DNA from: Chryseobacterium arthrosphaerae
GTDB lineage: Bacteria > Bacteroidota > Bacteroidia > Flavobacteriales > Weeksellaceae
Direction: 5' to 3'
NCBI RefSeq assembly: GCF_001684965.1
Contig: NZ_MAYG01000001.1
Location: 1,984,001 to 2,048,000 of the forward strand
DNA: 64,000 nucleotides
Each line of letters opens with the position of its first letter. Within the stretch, counting starts at the first letter, position 1. Both the position numbers and the translations under genes were made by a program. Of this stretch, positions 36,141 to 62,424 are shown piece by piece. The notes beneath the pieces were generated by a model. It was not told the origin of the DNA. It did no database searches and was given only the letters and a program-made list of their open reading frames with translations.

Positions 36141-36929
36141 ATGAAATTAGAATTATATCAGATAGATGCATTTACAGAAGAGATTTTCCATGGAAATCCT
36201 GCCTGCGTTGTTCCATTAAAAAGCTGGCTGCCCGATGAGATCCTTTTAAAAATAGCCCGTGAAAATGCCGTGGCAGAAACAGCCTTCTTTATCGATAACG
36301 GCAATACCATTCATCTGAGATGGTTTACCCCTGAAATTGAAATGGATTTATGCGGACATGCCACTCTGGCTACCGCCCACTGCCTGGCTTCCCTCTTAAA
36401 CTATCAGCACAGCAGAATCATTTTTGAAACCAAAAGTGGTGAACTGACCGTTGATATAAAAGACGGATTTTATTATATGGATTTTCCGTCAAGAATGCCT
36501 GAACCTTCTACCCTTCCGGACACTATTGCCCAGTCTCTCAATATACAGCCAAAAGAAGTCTTCCGGTCAAGAGATTATGTTTTGGTATATGAGTCTGAAG
36601 ACGACATCAGAAAAATCAGTGTTGAAAGATCCGTTTTTGACCTTATCAACCTGGACCCCGGAGGCGTTGTAGTAACAGCAGCAGGTACTGACAGTGATTT
36701 TGTTTCAAGATATTTTACCCCGCAGTCTTCCATTCTTGAAGATCCTGTAACCGGTTCTGCCCACTGCTCACTCATCCCGTTCTGGTCATCAAGATTGGAA
36801 AAAGATACACTTTTTGCCCGCCAGCTTTCTGAAAGAGGCGGCCAGCTTTATTGTGAAAACAAAAATGAAAGGGTAATTGTGGCCGGTAAAGCCAGAACAT
36901 ATTCAATAGGACATCTGTGGATAGAATAA
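36141..36929 (+). CDS. PhzF-family isomerase/epimerase-like protein
   Basis: The protein has 262 residues, the usual length for PhzF/YddE proteins. It has the family start LYQIDAFTEEIFHGNPACVVPL, the catalytic-glutamate region ARENAVAETAFF (Glu about 46), the substrate loop RWFTPEIEMDLCGHATLATAH (about 60-82) and the C-terminal DPVTGSAHCSLIPFW (about 202-216). The fold is a diaminopimelate-epimerase-like double domain. PhzF itself isomerises a phenazine precursor, but no phenazine genes are here and most bacterial homologues have unknown substrates. Confidence 0.88.
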   Translation: MKLELYQIDAFTEEIFHGNPACVVPLKSWLPDEILLKIARENAVAETAFFIDNGNTIHLRWFTPEIEMDLCGHATLATAHCLASLLNYQHSRIIFETKSGELTVDIKDGFYYMDFPSRMPEPSTLPDTIAQSLNIQPKEVFRSRDYVLVYESEDDIRKISVERSVFDLINLDPGGVVVTAAGTDSDFVSRYFTPQSSILEDPVTGSAHCSLIPFWSSRLEKDTLFARQLSERGGQLYCENKNERVIVAGKARTYSIGHLWIE

Positions 36930-37059
36930 TGTACTCTGATCAGACGGAAGGATTGGAGGAAGAACAGTTTTTTTTAAACGCAAAGTTCATTTTTTAGTAT
37001 GCTGAATTTTAGCAGGAAAATGATAGTAATAAATCTTTGCGTTAACTCTTTAGCTTAAC

Positions 37060-37223
37060 CCCGCTGCCGCACGAATCCTTTCGTGTGGTCTAAGCATATA
37101 AACATCCAGCTAATCTAAAGCAAAACTTACGGAATATAATCCTTCAAGATGCTAGAAGATAAAAAACTGTGAGGAAGTTATTGAAGTAAAAACCACACGA
37201 TACAATCGTGCGGTAGCGATGGG
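37060..37223 (+). repeat. ~165-bp interspersed element with hairpin ends, copy 1
   Basis: The left end has CCGCACGA-atcctt-TCGTGTGG and the right end CCACACGA-tacaa-TCGTGCGG followed by TAGCGATGGGA. Each end is an imperfect hairpin and the two ends are inverted repeats of each other. The interior is conserved between copies (TTACGGAATATAATCCTTCAAGAT, GAGGAAGTTATTGAAGTAAAA, each quoted only as landmarks). This is REPIN/MITE-like structure: two REP-type hairpins in inverted orientation with a GTAG at one foot. It bounds the AT-rich island on its left; 36930-37059 otherwise holds nothing notable. Confidence 0.8.
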
Positions 37224-37322
37224 ATTTTTTTATGCATGAACTTCAAAGACTTTTCTCTGAAAGCTTTAAAATTTCCGTAAAAATACTTAGTAATCGTTTT
37301 CAGAAGATTTTTATTTTTGCCA

Positions 37323-37369
37323 TTTACGGAAAACCGTAAAGCCATGAAATAATGTATTTTGTATATTTG
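37323..37369 (+). promoter_or_regulatory. Promoter and palindrome upstream of the island operon
   Basis: TTTACGGAAAACCGTAAA (37323-37340) is a perfect 7-bp dyad around AAAA. A TATATTTG -7 element follows at 37362-37369, 40 bases before the ATG. The same pair, dyad then TATATT(T/C)G at nearly equal spacing, precedes the small gene at 55652. Confidence 0.6.
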
Positions 37370-37409
37370 AAAAATGCATGTTTGAAGCAAAATTAACACT
37401 CCTAAAACC

Positions 37410-38540
37410 ATGAATAAGTTAAATATAAAATCAAATTTATTAGATCACTCTGAAGCTAAGGTCAGATTACTGGGAGAATATTTAAAAAGATACTTAAGCA
37501 TTATAAGTAATGACGGATTTACTGAAAAAATTTATATCTATGATCTTTTCTGTGGACAAGGCAAATATGAAAATGGTGGTTATGGAAGTCCATTAGTAGC
37601 ATTAAAAAATGTTAGAGATATTTTTTTTAGTGTTATTAATCAAAAAGATTCTAAGCTTCCAAAAATAGATTGTTTTTTTAATGACATTGAAGAAATGAAA
37701 ACTATTATTCTTGAAAATGTTATTAAAGAAAAAAAACTACATTATCCAAATATTGGTAATTTAACTATTACCAATAATGATTATAAAGATGAAATAAAAA
37801 TTTTAAAGAATAAATTTAGAGAGTATAAAAAAGAAAAGGCTTTTGTTTTTATAGATCCTTATGGTTATAAAGAATTAAAAGCTAATGATATTAAAGAATT
37901 GATAGGAACACATAAAAAAAGTGAGATTTTATTATGGCTTCCTATACAATTTATGTATCGATTCGCAGACAAAGAAGCACCAGATGTTTTAAAAACTCTC
38001 ATTTCTGATCTACAAATTAATGAAGAAGTAAAAATATTAAATAATGTTTGGGATTTTATTTATTCTTTAAAAAAAGGATTTCAAAATTATTTAGGGAATG
38101 ATTATTTTGTTGATAATTTTACTCTTAAGAAAGAAGAGAATACAGTTTTTTGTTTGTATTTCTTTACATCACATATCAAAGGATTTGAAAAAATGTTAGA
38201 GTCCAAGTGGGAAATTGATGCAGAAGAAGGAAGAGGATGGGAATATTCTGGCAATACTCCCTCATTATTTTTTGACCAAAAGACTAATAGATTGGAAGAA
38301 CTTTTAAAGATATTTTTAAAGTCTGAAAGAAAATTTAATTATGATTTGTATGAGTTTACTCTCCAAGCTGGCTTTCTAACTAAACATTCAACTGAAATAC
38401 TAACAGACTGGCAAAATCGTGGTTTATTGGAAGTAGTTGTAACAGATACAAATTTACAAGCTAGAAAAAGATCATTTTATATAAAATACTTTAAAGCTGG
38501 TACAAAAGATAGAAAAAAGGTCTACTATATTTTAAAATAA
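37410..38540 (+). CDS. tcmP: Three-Cys-motif partner protein (TcmP family)
   Basis: A 376-residue protein. It begins [19 protein letters not shown], followed by [25 protein letters not shown] (about 42-66), which resembles the SAM-binding motif I of Rossmann methyltransferases. [12 protein letters not shown] (about 146-157) occupies the position of a D-P-x-x catalytic/structural motif. The family (TIGR04474 type) is defined by its constant association with a three-Cys Gp37/Gp68 protein, and exactly that gene follows 10 bp downstream. Biochemical role is not established; a nucleic-acid-modifying enzyme is my inference from the motifs and company. Confidence 0.85.
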
Positions 38541-38550
38541 CAATACAATA

Positions 38551-39276
38551 ATGGCACAATCTAGTATAGAATGGACAGAAATGACTTGGAACCCTACGAC
38601 AGGCTGTGATAAGATTTCAGCAGGTTGTAAATTTTGCTATGCCGAAATCATGTCCAAGAGACTACAGTCAATGGGTATCGAAAAATATAAAGATAATTTT
38701 GAGATCAGAACACATGAAGAAGCCTTAAAAATCCCCTACACTTGGAGGAATTCTAAGGTTGTATTTGTAAATTCGATGAGTGATTTATTTCATAAAGATA
38801 TACCTCTTGATTTTATAAAGAAAGTTTTCAAAGTAATGAATAATAATCCTCAACATGTTTTTCAAATTTTGACAAAGCGCGCAGAAAGATTATTAGAACT
38901 CCATGCTGAACTGAAATGGACTCATAATATTTGGATGGGAGTTTCTGTAGAAAATGAGAAAGTAAAAGGACGAATTGATTATTTAAGACAAACAAATGCG
39001 AGAGTTAAATTTCTATCATTAGAACCTTTAATTGGACCATTACCAAATTTAAATCTTGAAAGAATTGACTGGGTCATTGTTGGGGGCGAAAGTGGTCATA
39101 AGCCAAGACCAATTGATGCAGATTGGGTTATAGATATTCAAGAGCAATGTGAAAAAAATGAAGTGGCTTTCTTTTTTAAACAGTGGGGAGGAAAAAACAA
39201 AAAAGCAAGTGGTCGTATTCTAAATGGAAGAACCTATGATGAAATGCCTGAAATTGAATTACAACGTAGTGTATAA
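38551..39276 (+). CDS. Gp37/Gp68 family three-Cys-motif protein (DUF5131)
   Basis: A 241-residue protein. The N-terminus [15 protein letters not shown]6-C-x2-CYAE (Cys19, Cys26, Cys29) is the hallmark three-Cys motif. It is followed by [46 protein letters not shown] and [14 protein letters not shown], all standard blocks of the phage Gp37/Gp68 family, and FFFKQWGG near the end. The three Cys and the barrel-like block pattern suggest an iron-sulphur or radical-SAM-like protein, but the spacing differs from the classical CxxxCxxC. It pairs with the upstream TcmP protein. Confidence 0.88.
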
Positions 39277-39391
39277 AAACTAAATATTATTTTTTGATAT
39301 TATAAATTACATCAAAGCATATTCATTTCAATAAAACAAATGGGATTAATATCTTTTCCCATTACATATAATTAATAACCAACAAAAAAAT

Positions 39392-40945
39392 ATGGGCGAG
39401 CCTGTTTACAAACTAGAACCACTTTTTAAAACTAAAAACAATTCATCAACCTTAGAAAAGTTTGAAAATACTTTAACAGAAGAACTACTCTTCGCAATTT
39501 GTTCACCAATTGGTTCTTTAAAAGAAAGAGTTATTGAACAATTGAAGTATAAATTAGAAACGGAATATGATTATAAAGTTCACATTATAAAAATGAGTGA
39601 CTTTATTGATGAATATGATTTTTCGCCTGAAGAATTAAACGACATGCCACCAATTCCAAACGGAACTCCTATTTTCAAAAAATATTTTGAAAAAATTAAT
39701 AAAGGCAATATTATTAGAAAATATAACACAAATGAAAGATTAGCCGAATATGCAGTAAAAAAAATTCATATTGAAAGAGTCAAACAAGTAAAAAAAGAAG
39801 ATGGTTCGCATCCAAAATCAACTGATTTTGAATCACAAAGAGTTTGTTATATTATTGATTCAATTAAAACAAAAAAAGAATTATTATTACTAAGAAAAAT
39901 TTATTCCGAGAATTTTTATTCCATCAGTCTCTTTTCTCCACTTAATGACAGAAAATCAAATTTAAAATCAAAAAAATTCGAGGACACTGAAATTGTTCAA
40001 ATAATAGAGATAGATGACAAACAGAAAGATGATTATGGGCAAAATGTGCGAGATGCTTTTGTAGAAGGGGATTTTTTTATTCGGATCTCAAAAGATAATG
40101 TTCCTAAAATAGAACGTAAAATATCGAGATTTTTACATTTAATTTTTGAAACATCAATAGTAACACCTACTATAGAAGAAATTGCAATGTATAATGCAAA
40201 AGCTGCTGCTGGAAATTCCGCCTGTTTATCAAGACAGGTAGGAGCATGCATAATTGATGATAAAAATAATATTCTTTCAATTGGCTGGAATGATGTTCCA
40301 AAGTTTGGTGGTAATTTGTATACAACTGATTCTAGTATTGATCATAGATGTTTCAATCATGAATTTTGTAGTAATGACAAGCAAAAAAGTGACGTTGTAG
40401 ATAATATAGTATCATCAATACTATCAGATTCTCAATTTGAAACATTACAAGAAATACCAAATATTGAGTCATTATTAAGAGAGAATATCATAAATAATAC
40501 TAAGGTTAAAGATTTAATTGAATTTTCAAGATCTGTCCATGCAGAAATGCATGCAATTATACAAGGAGCAGTAACAACAGGAAATAAAATCTTAGAAGGA
40601 AAGCTATTTTGTACTACATATCCTTGCCATAATTGCGCAAGACATATAATCGCTGCAGGCATTAAAGAAGTCTATTATATTGAGCCATATGTAAAAAGTT
40701 TATGTCTTACATTACACGAAGATGCAATGACAGAGAATGAAGATTCTAATGATAAAGTTAAGCTTCTAATTTTTGACGGAATATCTCCTAACAAGTATTT
40801 ATCTTTTTTTACTAATTTAGCCGATAGAAAAAGAAAAGGGGATCTCATAAAAAAGGATCATAAAACTGCGAAACCCAAAAGTAGTAAATCTCTTCAAGCA
40901 CTATCAACTCTAGAAGAACAGGCTGTCTTAACATTAGACTCTTAA
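39392..40945 (+). CDS. Anti-phage-type deoxycytidylate deaminase (P-loop-like N-domain fused to CDA domain)
   Basis: A 517-residue protein. The N-terminal half carries a degenerate P-loop-like segment (LLFAICSPIGSLKERV, 32-47, no GKS/T). The C-terminal half is a dCMP/cytidine deaminase: SRQVGACIIDDKNNILSIGWND, then HAE (His383, proton shuttle Glu385) and PCHNC (Pro411, zinc ligands Cys412 and Cys415). Two-domain proteins of this length and order (AvcD/defensive dCTP deaminases) deplete deoxycytidine nucleotides during phage infection. All catalytic residues are present, so it should be active. An AT-rich 115-bp gap separates it from the Gp37/Gp68 gene; no separate -7 match is evident there. 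Confidence 0.8.
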   Translation: MGEPVYKLEPLFKTKNNSSTLEKFENTLTEELLFAICSPIGSLKERVIEQLKYKLETEYDYKVHIIKMSDFIDEYDFSPEELNDMPPIPNGTPIFKKYFEKINKGNIIRKYNTNERLAEYAVKKIHIERVKQVKKEDGSHPKSTDFESQRVCYIIDSIKTKKELLLLRKIYSENFYSISLFSPLNDRKSNLKSKKFEDTEIVQIIEIDDKQKDDYGQNVRDAFVEGDFFIRISKDNVPKIERKISRFLHLIFETSIVTPTIEEIAMYNAKAAAGNSACLSRQVGACIIDDKNNILSIGWNDVPKFGGNLYTTDSSIDHRCFNHEFCSNDKQKSDVVDNIVSSILSDSQFETLQEIPNIESLLRENIINNTKVKDLIEFSRSVHAEMHAIIQGAVTTGNKILEGKLFCTTYPCHNCARHIIAAGIKEVYYIEPYVKSLCLTLHEDAMTENEDSNDKVKLLIFDGISPNKYLSFFTNLADRKRKGDLIKKDHKTAKPKSSKSLQALSTLEEQAVLTLDS

Positions 40946-40948
40946 AAT

Positions 40949-41197
40949 ATGGATAAAAAAATAACAGATAAGGAATCAATTCAATTAGAATTTGATTTCA
41001 ATTATTCTTATTCATCAGAAAATATGCTTTCTAGTGATAGAACTGTTATTGCTCTGAATCATCGTCATGAAAAGATAAAAAAACAGCATCATAAGATTGC
41101 TCAAATAATAAAAATTGATGATTGTATTAATATAATAAAGAAAAAGAGAGAAACTGAAATAATTAATTTTATTGTTAATAATTCGAAATCTTTTTAA
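40949..41197 (+). CDS. Small protein, unknown, coupled to the deaminase gene
   Basis: An 82-residue, Lys/Ile/Asn-rich protein starting 3 bp after the deaminase stop. No signal peptide, no membrane segment; the second half is helical and basic (NHRHEKIKKQHHKIAQIIK, KKKRETEIINF). No family recognised. Position suggests a regulator, inhibitor or partner of the deaminase. Confidence 0.6.
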   Translation: MDKKITDKESIQLEFDFNYSYSSENMLSSDRTVIALNHRHEKIKKQHHKIAQIIKIDDCINIIKKKRETEIINFIVNNSKSF

Positions 41198-41224
41198 GTC
41201 AAATAAAAATGCTTAAATCTCCTA

Positions 41225-41398
41225 CGCTACCGCACGAATCCTTTCGTGTGGTCTTAGCATATAAACATCCAGCTAATCTAAAGCAGAGCTTACGGAATAT
41301 AGTCCTTCAAAGATTGTAGAATTTATTAAGATAAAAAACTTTGTGAGGAAGTTATTGAAGTAAAAACCACACAATACAATCGTACGGTAGCGATGGGA
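41225..41398 (+). repeat. ~170-bp interspersed element with hairpin ends, copy 2
   Basis: Same structure and orientation as the copy at 37060. Left end CGCTACCGCACGAATCC, right end CACAATACAATCGTACGGTAGCG, with one base change in each arm of the right hairpin and about 10 extra interior bases. It closes the AT-rich island on its right. Confidence 0.8.
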
Positions 41399-41450
41399 TT
41401 CTATTTCAAACAAAAATCTGCGCTATGCATCAATATCGGAGAGAGTTACT

Positions 41451-41458
41451 TATATTTG
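41451..41458 (+). promoter_or_regulatory. -7 element before the 41499 gene
   Basis: TATATTTG, a perfect TAnnTTTG match, 40 bases upstream of the ATG. Confidence 0.45.
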
Positions 41459-41498
41459 AGGCTTAACGGAAATTATAGAATACCCTAACACTTACTAT

Positions 41499-42179
41499 AT
41501 GAAAACAAAACTTAGCTATCTGTTTATTCTGTTATATGTTCTTGTAAGTGGTCAGGAAAAATCTATCATTAATGACCTGAGGTTTTCTAACTATTTCGGG
41601 CATCCCAAAACCATCACAGAGATCATCACTTATTCACCGGATAACATTTATAAAAATATTTCCTATTATGACAAAGAGGGTTTTCTTACGAAAGTAGAAT
41701 ATTACAATGCTATCGGAAGCGGACCTTCTCAGGAAAGATTTATCAATAAAATTATTACCTACAAATCTAAGGACAAAGCCAAACGCTATTTTGAAGCCTT
41801 TAATCCTGGTAATAAGAAGATAGAAACTACAGGTTATTTTGAAAAAGTTTCAGATTCTCTATACAAAAGAGTTTCAAATGATCCTGTTCACAATATATCT
41901 CTTAGCAAGCTGTTTTATTTTGACAAAAATAACCGCCTGATAAAAACTGAAGAAACCGGAAATTTCTTTGAAACCCCGGTTAACAGCACTATTTTTTACA
42001 CTTACATCAATGGAATGAGAAGTGAAACCCTTCTTGAAGATGCCACTAAGCAAAAAAAATCTAAGCTCGTTTATAAGAATGTAAAGCTTGATCCGCAAGC
42101 CAACTCCATTTATGAAGAATTAACAGATGATCAGGGAGCAATACAACAAAAAACAGAAAGAATATTTGAGTATTATTAA
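41499..42179 (+). CDS. Secreted hypothetical protein
   Basis: A 226-residue protein with a signal peptide ending near residue 18 (MKTKLSYLFILLYVLVSGQ). The mature part is rich in short Y-x-N/Y-x-D strands (ISYYDKEGFLTKVEYYNAIG, YFEKVSDSLYKRV, LFYFDKNNRLIKTEE), resembling the YD/RHS-like antiparallel repeats of MORN/YwqK-type secreted proteins. No catalytic motif. It lies between two interspersed-element copies, and its codon use is like the chromosome rather than the AT-rich island. Confidence 0.65.
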   Translation: MKTKLSYLFILLYVLVSGQEKSIINDLRFSNYFGHPKTITEIITYSPDNIYKNISYYDKEGFLTKVEYYNAIGSGPSQERFINKIITYKSKDKAKRYFEAFNPGNKKIETTGYFEKVSDSLYKRVSNDPVHNISLSKLFYFDKNNRLIKTEETGNFFETPVNSTIFYTYINGMRSETLLEDATKQKKSKLVYKNVKLDPQANSIYEELTDDQGAIQQKTERIFEYY

Positions 42180-42221
42180 CCACGCTGGTTCAGCACTTTC
42201 ATAAAAAACATAGAATTCAAA

Positions 42222-42580
42222 TGCAAAGGCTGAAGGTACTTTCTAAGAGCCTCCAGACATTTCAAAAGTATCCGGAAGGATTTTCCCAACTGTCTGCACC
42301 CCCTTCAAAAATAATCTGCAATACTTACCCAAGTGTCCGGATTCATTTACAGAAATATCTCCAACTACTTCCCTGGTCGCTCTGACCACTTAAAGAACTG
42401 TCTACAAACCCTTAGATAAGTGTATTTGACAATGATATCAGTGTGTCCTGAAACCTATAAACCGCCTGCAGACCGTTATCTAACGGGCTCTACCCACTTA
42501 TCATACCCCCTCGAGGGACTTCTGAACCGTCTCTACCCGGTTGGTCAACGGGTTTCATCCCCTTAGGTAAGGGGGTAAAG
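42222..42580. repeat. Degenerate ~22-nt tandem array, about 16 units
   Basis: The plus strand can be cut into consecutive units of 18-25 bases (most 20-24) with the loose consensus nnnnACTTnnnnAAnnGTCT, for example GCAATACTTACCCAAGTGTCC, GACCACTTAAAGAACTGTCT and GGAAGGATTTTCCCAACTGTCT (each at most 22 bases). Later units (42460-42580) are GC-rich and form small hairpins such as CCCCTTAGGTAAGGGG and CCGTTATCTAACGG. No open frame runs through it, and units are too divergent and have no spacers, so it is not CRISPR. It fills most of the gene-free stretch 42180-42839. Confidence 0.65.
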
Positions 42581-42599
42581 AAGAATAGAATGGAATATC

Positions 42600-42766
42600 C
42601 CGCTCCCGCACGAATCCTTTCGTGTGGTCTTTGCATATAAATGAAAATATCTTGTTAATCAAAAACAAAACTTACGGAATATAATCCTTCAAGATTCTAG
42701 AGATAAGAAATTTTTTGAGGAAGTTATTGAAGTAAAAACCACACGATACAATCGTGCGGTAGCGAT
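42600..42766 (+). repeat. ~165-bp interspersed element with hairpin ends, copy 3
   Basis: Same orientation as the copies at 37060 and 41225. Left end CGCTCCCGCACGAATCC, interior TTACGGAATATAATCC, right end CCACACGATACAATCGTGCGG. The interior left of centre differs (ATGAAAATATCTTG in place of the usual ATCCAGCTAATC). Confidence 0.8.
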
Positions 42767-42839
42767 GAAAGTTTTACAAGTTACAGCAAAATCATAATAA
42801 TTAAAATTTCTGTATCTTGGTATCAGTCAACCAATAAGC

Positions 42840-43292
42840 ATGGAAATCATCAATTACACCAACATTTTCAGAGAAAACTGTATTGAAATCTTCAAAAGTA
42901 ATCTGCCTAAGTTTTTTGCTATGGAAGAATTGCCGCTTTACGAAAGCTTTTTAGATCAACATACTGATGAGGACTATTTTGTTGTTCGATCAGGTGGCCA
43001 GATAGTGGGATGTGGCGGTGTTTTTTTAGATGCAAAGAATAACAGGGCGGGATTGTCCTGGGGAATGGTTCATGCAGACTATCATGGAAAAGGAATAGGA
43101 AAGGCTTTTACCCAATACCGGATTGATTTATTAAAAAAGATTTATCCTTCACTCCCCTACACTATTGAAACGTCACAACATACCGCTGAGTTTTATAAAA
43201 AGAACGGATTCAGAACGGTAGAGATTATACAGGATGGCTTCAGTAAGGGAATTGACAGATATACCATGATCATGGAAGTATCCGGAACGTGA
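42840..43292 (+). CDS. GNAT-family N-acetyltransferase
   Basis: A 150-residue protein with the GNAT core. It has the beta strands YFVVRSGGQIVGCGGVFLD, motif A with the acetyl-CoA pyrophosphate loop HGKGIGKAF (about 82-90) and motif B ending TAEFYKKNGFRTVE (about 120-133). Substrate unknown. A TATCTTGG sequence upstream is only a partial promoter match. It precedes another GNAT gene by 89 bp. Confidence 0.85.
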   Translation: MEIINYTNIFRENCIEIFKSNLPKFFAMEELPLYESFLDQHTDEDYFVVRSGGQIVGCGGVFLDAKNNRAGLSWGMVHADYHGKGIGKAFTQYRIDLLKKIYPSLPYTIETSQHTAEFYKKNGFRTVEIIQDGFSKGIDRYTMIMEVSGT

Positions 43293-62372: not shown

Positions 62373-62424
62373 AACCACACGAAGGATTCGTGCGGTAGCA
62401 GTGGGGAAGGATTCGTGTGGCAGC
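62373..62424. repeat. Half copy of the interspersed element's hairpin end
   Basis: ACCACACGA-aggat-TCGTGCGGTAGC followed at once by a partial hairpin arm GATTCGTGTGGCAGC: the ends of the ~165-bp element without its interior. Possibly a deletion product or a solo REP-type unit. Confidence 0.65.

Follow-up and report, generated by a model that had tools for sequence, protein, structure and literature searches.

A dCTP deaminase with a candidate small partner and a TcmP-DUF5131 pair at an exchangeable chromosomal site of Chryseobacterium arthrosphaerae

Four closely packed genes in an AT-rich island

A 64,000-nucleotide (nt) stretch of the Chryseobacterium arthrosphaerae genome (contig NZ_MAYG01000001.1, positions 1,984,001 to 2,048,000; hereafter, the window) contains a compact defense locus that consists of four genes on the forward (+) strand. 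The first gene (37410-38540; 376 amino acids, aa) encodes TcmP (three-Cys-motif partner) and is followed by the genes for a DUF5131 (Gp37-Gp68) three-Cys protein (38551-39276; 241 aa), a deaminase of the anti-phage deoxycytidine triphosphate/monophosphate (dCTP/dCMP) type (39392-40945; 517 aa) and a small protein of 82 aa (40949-41197) that contains, near the N-terminus, the sequence IQLEFDF, which is similar to beta-clamp-binding motifs. The gaps between these genes are 10, 115 and 3 nt, and the GC content is 27.5 to 30.8% in the five kilobases between 37 and 42 kb, compared to 36.5 to 39.7% in the two kilobases on each side. An initial annotation, made from the sequence alone, had described the locus in the same terms, namely, as four tightly packed defense genes in an AT-rich island, and we find this description to be accurate. 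For the single promoter that it also proposed, the evidence is weak: the TAnnTTTG box, a Bacteroidota-like promoter consensus, has two occurrences in the 179 nt upstream of TcmP and none in the 115-nt gap before the deaminase.

The 517-aa protein is assigned by profile comparison to the known type of anti-phage dCTP deaminases. It matches NF041025 over the whole model (positions 1-437 of 437) with 468.5 bits, above the cut-off of 400, and the PADLOC dCTPase family with an E-value of 8.4e-162; the HAE and PCxxC zinc motifs are intact, and H383, E385, C412 and C415 are invariant in 21/21 aligned deaminases. The earlier prediction of a complete two-domain enzyme with H383, E385 and C412 in the active site is thus borne out. 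In the AvcID system, the deaminase is silenced by the AvcI RNA, which is lost when a phage stops host transcription, according to the accessible text of PMC10511110. No support was obtained for an AvcI-like RNA in the 115-nt gap: no Rfam match was detected in 36900-42900 (Rfam may not include AvcI), the four upstream sequences compared align poorly, and the gap is shorter than the AvcI minimum of about 171 nt given in the same text.

The first two proteins are also identified by profile searches. TcmP scores 134.8 bits against TIGR04474 (cut-off 53), and DUF5131 scores 330.9 bits against PF07505, above the gathering score, with all three cysteines (C19-x6-C26-x2-C29) retained in 48/48 aligned sequences; in PADLOC, TcmP strongly matches PDC-M30A and DUF5131 strongly matches PDC-M30B/M41B. 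In its predicted structure, TcmP, which has the motifs DLFCG and DPYG and ends in a GMT-wHTH (winged helix-turn-helix) domain, resembles the Rossmann methyltransferase fold of RlmJ, and DUF5131 resembles the radical-SAM (S-adenosylmethionine) barrel of spore photoproduct lyase and viperin. The latter resemblance stems from a realignment; Foldseek alone yielded no DUF5131 match at E≤0.001. Sequence searches with both proteins against solved structures produced no meaningful match.

The small gene behind the deaminase

The main new result of this work concerns the 82-aa gene, which, by position and motif, is one of a family of small genes found alongside this type of deaminase in many bacteria. 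The initial annotation had noticed the small protein 3 base pairs after the deaminase, which is indeed present, but did not recognize this family. A direct search for relatives of the 82-aa protein retrieved only four proteins, itself included, and weak matches to NCBIfam and PHROGs (E-values of 0.005 to 0.06) were taken as chance. We compared deaminase loci by position, using the best 80 of the 168 loci found, from named genomes and with flanks covered up to 10 kb, and searched for small open reading frames (ORFs) with the pattern Q[LM]x[LFIVM]x?[FL] within the first 50 residues. In 54 of the 80 loci, such an ORF begins at -41 to +47 nt relative to the deaminase stop codon, with a length of 46 to 107 aa and a median of 65; some small ORF occupies this place in 72 loci, 18 of them without the pattern (including a few near-misses), and the remaining 8 loci have none. 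The same procedure applied behind 868 other ORFs longer than 200 aa in these loci recovered a single motif ORF, with a small ORF of any kind in 268 cases, and residue shuffles match the pattern in 1.2% of the cases. To judge from the comparison with the corresponding locus of another Chryseobacterium genome (G024; dN of 0.15 and dS of 0.49), the 82-aa gene is subject to purifying selection. A small partner of dCTP deaminases was not found in the open literature, the founding papers (10.1038/s41564-022-01162-4, 10.1038/s41564-022-01158-0) not being covered.

The pattern is close to the beta-clamp-binding consensus, which is given in a review of the beta-clamp as Q-phi-x-[LM]-[FL] or Q-phi-x-[LM]-x-[FL], along with the phage-display peptide LQLELDF (PMC11139829). 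The strict form of this consensus is found in 34 of the 80 loci, and the count of 54 is reached when F, I or V is allowed at position 4. Pentamer forms occur in six cases (QLDLF three times, and QLSLF, QLNLF and QLELF once each). Judged by the motif alone, the small protein probably binds the clamp.

Several observations weigh against such a clamp-coupled partner. The window motif itself, QLEFDF, which is the same in the 82-aa protein and its three listed homologs, has F at position 4 and so falls outside the strict hexamer consensus. The pattern was widened after a first look at the ORFs, so that the count of 54 out of 80 is not blind; the first, narrower pattern, which also required K or R followed by F at the C-terminal end, was matched in 21 of 88 loci (the 80 and 8 extra). 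When the pattern, already fixed, was applied to viral loci, 4 of 16 matched and the motif ORF was absent from the other 12. The 26 loci without the motif include all 8 that are assigned by name to gammaproteobacteria (versus 54 of the 72 others with it), and no motif ORF was detected behind the 5 long deaminases (679 to 724 aa) examined. A motif ORF is also missing behind an E. coli plasmid deaminase, and a Pantoea plasmid deaminase is followed by a similar small ORF with QLELPI, which fails the pattern; this look-alike suggests that the absence of the motif depends on the branch of the deaminase and not on the host.

The alternatives considered here and below overlap, and their probabilities do not sum to one. 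One that is possible, albeit somewhat unlikely, is that the small protein uses its QLxLxF-like segment to dock on the deaminase rather than on the clamp, the segment being a short linear motif or a beta-strand, and controls the enzyme as a protein antitoxin. Such docking would be in line with the close coupling to the enzyme, given that 26 of the 54 motif ORFs overlap the end of the deaminase gene, and with the distribution of the motif over the family: 53 of the 54 deaminases with a motif ORF align past residue 500 of the window deaminase, and the ORF is lacking for 5 of the 6 with shorter alignments. An antitoxin, in the form of RNA, is also on record for the AvcID deaminase (PMC10511110, in the part available). 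Conversely, alignment past residue 500 is also seen for 21 deaminases without a motif ORF, and the alternation of pentamers and hexamers, the two forms that the clamp pocket accepts according to the accessible part of PMC11139829, would be unexpected for a docking strand. It is quite improbable that the small protein serves as an additional toxin, occupying the clamp to stop replication while dCTP is being depleted. A clamp-like motif in so small a protein would fit this role, and a toxin-antitoxin system that targets the sliding clamp has been published (PMC12795458), but the close coupling to the deaminase is suggestive of a partnership.

Genomic context of the pair, the deaminase and the block

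To estimate how often the pair and the deaminase travel together, we analyzed 173 Chryseobacterium genomes, reading the surroundings of all 24 DUF5131 and all 10 deaminase loci. Five genomes carry a deaminase above the NF041025 cut-off and five carry a longer, lower-scoring one (short deaminases of 110 to 194 aa were not counted); DUF5131 is present in 24 genomes, the window included (E≤1e-15). The TcmP profile was applied to 16 of these 24 loci, of which 12 have an upstream TcmP; the other 8, with DUF5131 at 31 to 37% identity, were inspected by eye. Known defense genes lie beside the pair in 7 of the 12 loci, namely, a deaminase in 4, PtuA-PtuB in 1 and a ThsA-like macro-domain protein in 2, and the remaining 5 have no recognized effector. 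Both the pair and a deaminase are found in 5 of the 173 genomes versus 0.7 expected (P of 1.4e-4, with related genomes not independent), and in 4 of these 5 the two are within 2 kb of each other (P of about 2e-11 under random placement, with genome size and distance assumed, and the window genome and G024 not independent). These four are the window genome (G000), G024, G153 and G074.

Further afield, DUF5131 lies within about 2 kb in 3 of the 80 deaminase loci: one is that of G074 (L009), and the other two, L019, where the orientation is opposite, and L028, are from outside the genus. In an evenly drawn sample of 395 genomes of the phylum, DUF5131 is found in 71 (E≤1e-50) and the deaminase in 5 (E≤1e-30), the only genomes with both being G000 and G024; none of the 3 deaminase genomes outside the genus in this sample has DUF5131 at E≤1e-50. 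Among the 74 DUF5131 places listed for the phylum, 3 were already in hand and 60 of the other 71 were examined (11 were left out), a DUF5131 frame being found in 59, of which 42 are TcmP-DUF5131 pairs. A same-strand gene lies within 200 nt in 27 of these 42. The downstream chain of at least 14 of the 42 includes a known defense gene; 8 of these chains were scanned directly and 6 assigned by similarity, six come from a single family (f18), and not all chains were scanned. These are mostly specificity or restriction subunits of type I restriction-modification (R-M) systems, together with one LmuA-like/PDC-M48B protein, one weak ThsB-like protein and one phospholipase effector with an HsdS-like gene. 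The figure of at least 14 of 42 comes with no control for the general clustering of defense genes, and the flanks covered contain no DUF5131 in 77 of the 80 deaminase loci; both points count against the reading of two stacked units given below.

The association thus recurs above chance, as the initial annotation had anticipated, but it is not obligate: the components are of known types, and TcmP-DUF5131 is a promiscuous companion of defense genes rather than a fixed part of the deaminase system. A single functional system of three parts, with TcmP-DUF5131 as the sensor or trigger and the deaminase as the executor, appears unlikely. Its support comes from the adjacency in four of the five genomes with both and from the tight same-strand order in G000, G024 and G153, where two types of deaminase (517 and 679 aa) follow the same kind of pair; G153 has two TcmPs in front of the 679-aa enzyme. 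However, the order or strand differs in G074, where the pair and deaminase are reversed, and in L019 and L028, and G024 has a different type of TcmP (PDC-M41A) together with the same DUF5131, deaminase and small gene (93%, 91% and 66% identical, respectively). Because most deaminase loci lack DUF5131 and the pair precedes other effectors (PtuAB, ThsA-like or type I R-M genes) or none that is recognized, the proposed division into sensing and effector arms is unlikely as it was stated, and an obligate three-part system is not supported.

Other neighbors of these genes are worth recording. At L148:8920-10859 and L149:5612-7545, a ThsA-like macro-domain protein is encoded behind TcmP-DUF5131, next to a 352- to 354-aa protein, the L148 copy of which has no PADLOC match. 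At L195:5747-7364, the pair is followed by a ThsB-like protein (E-value of 6e-12) and by proteins of 167 and 150 aa, the last one SLATT-like by eye. In Sinorhizobium, the gene for the Hna defense helicase, SMa2245, adjoins the TcmP gene SMa2243 in a table of NolR-affected genes (PMC12445080, in the part available), another case of TcmP listed next to a defense gene. Long deaminases (703 and 724 aa) are encoded behind a 109-aa gene, MazG-like by eye, and a large helicase-like gene at L155:7735-12475 and L154:7474-11888; the helicase-like gene in L155 is a Schlafen group 3 helicase (PF09848, 4e-57) and the one in L154 encodes 619 aa. These loci are perhaps another deaminase-based defense operon.

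The block occupies a chromosomal site that exchanges its cargo. The gene on its left, PhzF, has matches in 83 of the 173 Chryseobacterium genomes (E≤1e-60); the 226-aa gene on its right (w226; 41499-42179, + strand) is kept, among the 14 of the 83 PhzF neighborhoods examined and within the stretch covered, only in G128, the closest genome by PhzF. There, a different cargo of 3.26 kb lies between the two genes, and the homology to the window breaks off at 36985 and is restored from 41396 onward. G153 carries the same 226-aa gene behind its TcmP-DUF5131-TcmP-deaminase set, at a place away from PhzF, so that this gene is the right neighbor of different cargo in the two genomes. Different cargo beside the same flanking gene is what a plain defense island of independent neighboring genes, with no functional coupling even of the small ORF, would produce; we consider this quite unlikely in view of the conserved small motif ORF behind deaminases of both Bacteroidota and Proteobacteria.

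The initial annotation regarded the block as one transferable unit with an identical element at each end, a view that is not supported. There are three + strand copies of a palindromic element, at 37060-37232 (173 nt), 41225-41400 (89% identity to the first copy) and 42599-42775 (86%), the third being beyond the supposed unit. The ends of the element pair to form a long stem with an internal loop. Across the genome, the 173-nt copy has 23 matches including the three full copies, the shorter ones corresponding to the repeat ends, and many of these sit in an array downstream of groEL (L001). Comparison of strains between the elements bears out the difference in cargo in G128, but not the association of the repeats with the module: none of the three copies has a match at E≤1e-3 in the 17 to 19 kb surrounding the G024, G153 and G074 modules, and G128 has a single 27-nt repeat end, outside the exchanged interval. 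The module does not require the repeats. A search for a link to repetitive extragenic palindromic (REP) sequences and their associated transposases (RAYT) found matches to the Y1 transposase family at two places in the genome, with the repeat motif absent from the approximately 3.3 kb around each. An integron/attC interpretation was rejected, since no GTT core is visible by eye and the related modules lack the elements; an integrase was not searched for.

The array at L001:8680-15570 (G000:C1:3055.6-3062.6 kb), downstream of groEL, contains eight palindromic elements of about 104 nt between mostly single-gene units, and in C. ureilyticum (L007/L141) a dCTP deaminase and a small gene come directly after groEL. 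A hairpin at 62374-62400 of the window has an end motif resembling that of the three repeats, with 5 mismatches. Exchangeable cargo in five Chryseobacterium genomes (L137:10781, L138:5560, L142:9683, L141:11010 and L243, 3179-3700 on the reverse strand) has beside it a gene of 173 to 187 aa with the motif [AS]G[LV]QL[MI]E[TN]F.

Proposed mechanism and comparison with known systems

With the gene identities, the tight spacing, the recurrence of the small ORF, the conservation of its motif and the exchange of cargo directly supported, the reading that we favor, at about even balance, is a compact defense cargo of two stacked same-strand units at an exchangeable site, in which the deaminase has a clamp-coupled cognate small partner. 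The first unit, TcmP-DUF5131 (PDC-M30), would be an S-adenosylmethionine-type enzyme pair by predicted fold, with an RlmJ-like methyltransferase carrying a winged helix-turn-helix and a radical-SAM protein; it is found upstream of various defense genes, and nucleic acid or nucleotides are its probable targets of modification. The second unit would comprise the anti-phage dCTP deaminase and the small protein encoded at its stop codon, presumably co-transcribed. Upon infection, the deaminase would empty the dCTP/dCMP pool, as published for AvcD. Through its N-terminal QLxLxF-like motif, the small protein would probably contact the beta sliding clamp, and through its C-terminal part, the deaminase, so that the deaminase activity would be switched by, or delivered to, the replication machinery. 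The small protein may thus be a controller or adaptor in the place that the AvcI RNA has in AvcID, its binding, the direction of control and the trigger all being part of this conjecture.

More tentatively, a large branch of the anti-phage dCTP deaminases could be a two-protein, clamp-coupled machine, in which a tiny obligate partner with a DnaN motif ties nucleotide depletion to the replisome and replaces the RNA antitoxin of AvcID; the trigger would then be the state of replication and not the loss of host transcription. A conserved small partner with a recognizable clamp motif offers a direct and cheap test of the silencing and triggering of nucleotide-depleting deaminases other than those of the AvcID type.

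Compared with known systems, the window deaminase shares the two-domain architecture and the HAE/PCxxC zinc site with the anti-phage dCTP deaminases (NF041025; PADLOC dCTPase; AvcD). Unlike AvcID, with its RNA antitoxin, it has a small motif-bearing ORF behind it. The TcmP-DUF5131 pair consists of the same two genes as PDC-M30/PDC-M41, which PADLOC lists solely as an uncharacterized candidate; added here are the fold predictions and the list of interchangeable neighbors (deaminase, PtuAB, ThsA-like and type I R-M genes). For this widespread candidate pair, seen beside several different defense effectors, the predictions provide a hint at the level of the fold. RlmJ, the 23S rRNA m6A methyltransferase, has a DPPY motif; TcmP differs in having DPYG and a C-terminal winged helix-turn-helix. 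The canonical radical-SAM cluster motif is CX3CX2C, with variant spacings known; DUF5131 does not conform to it, its cysteine spacing being CX6CX2C, and is only 8 to 15% identical to viperin and spore photoproduct lyase. For the small protein, the closest parallel is with beta-clamp-binding proteins such as Hda, which contains an AAA+ domain and, as in the 82-aa protein, a clamp-binding-like motif in a short N-terminal segment. The small protein, for which clamp binding is predicted, differs from Hda in the lack of the AAA+ domain, in its size (46 to 107 aa across the family) and in being encoded behind a deaminase; the clamp-binding motif of Hda lies in a disordered N-terminus, as described in the available part of PMC11139829.

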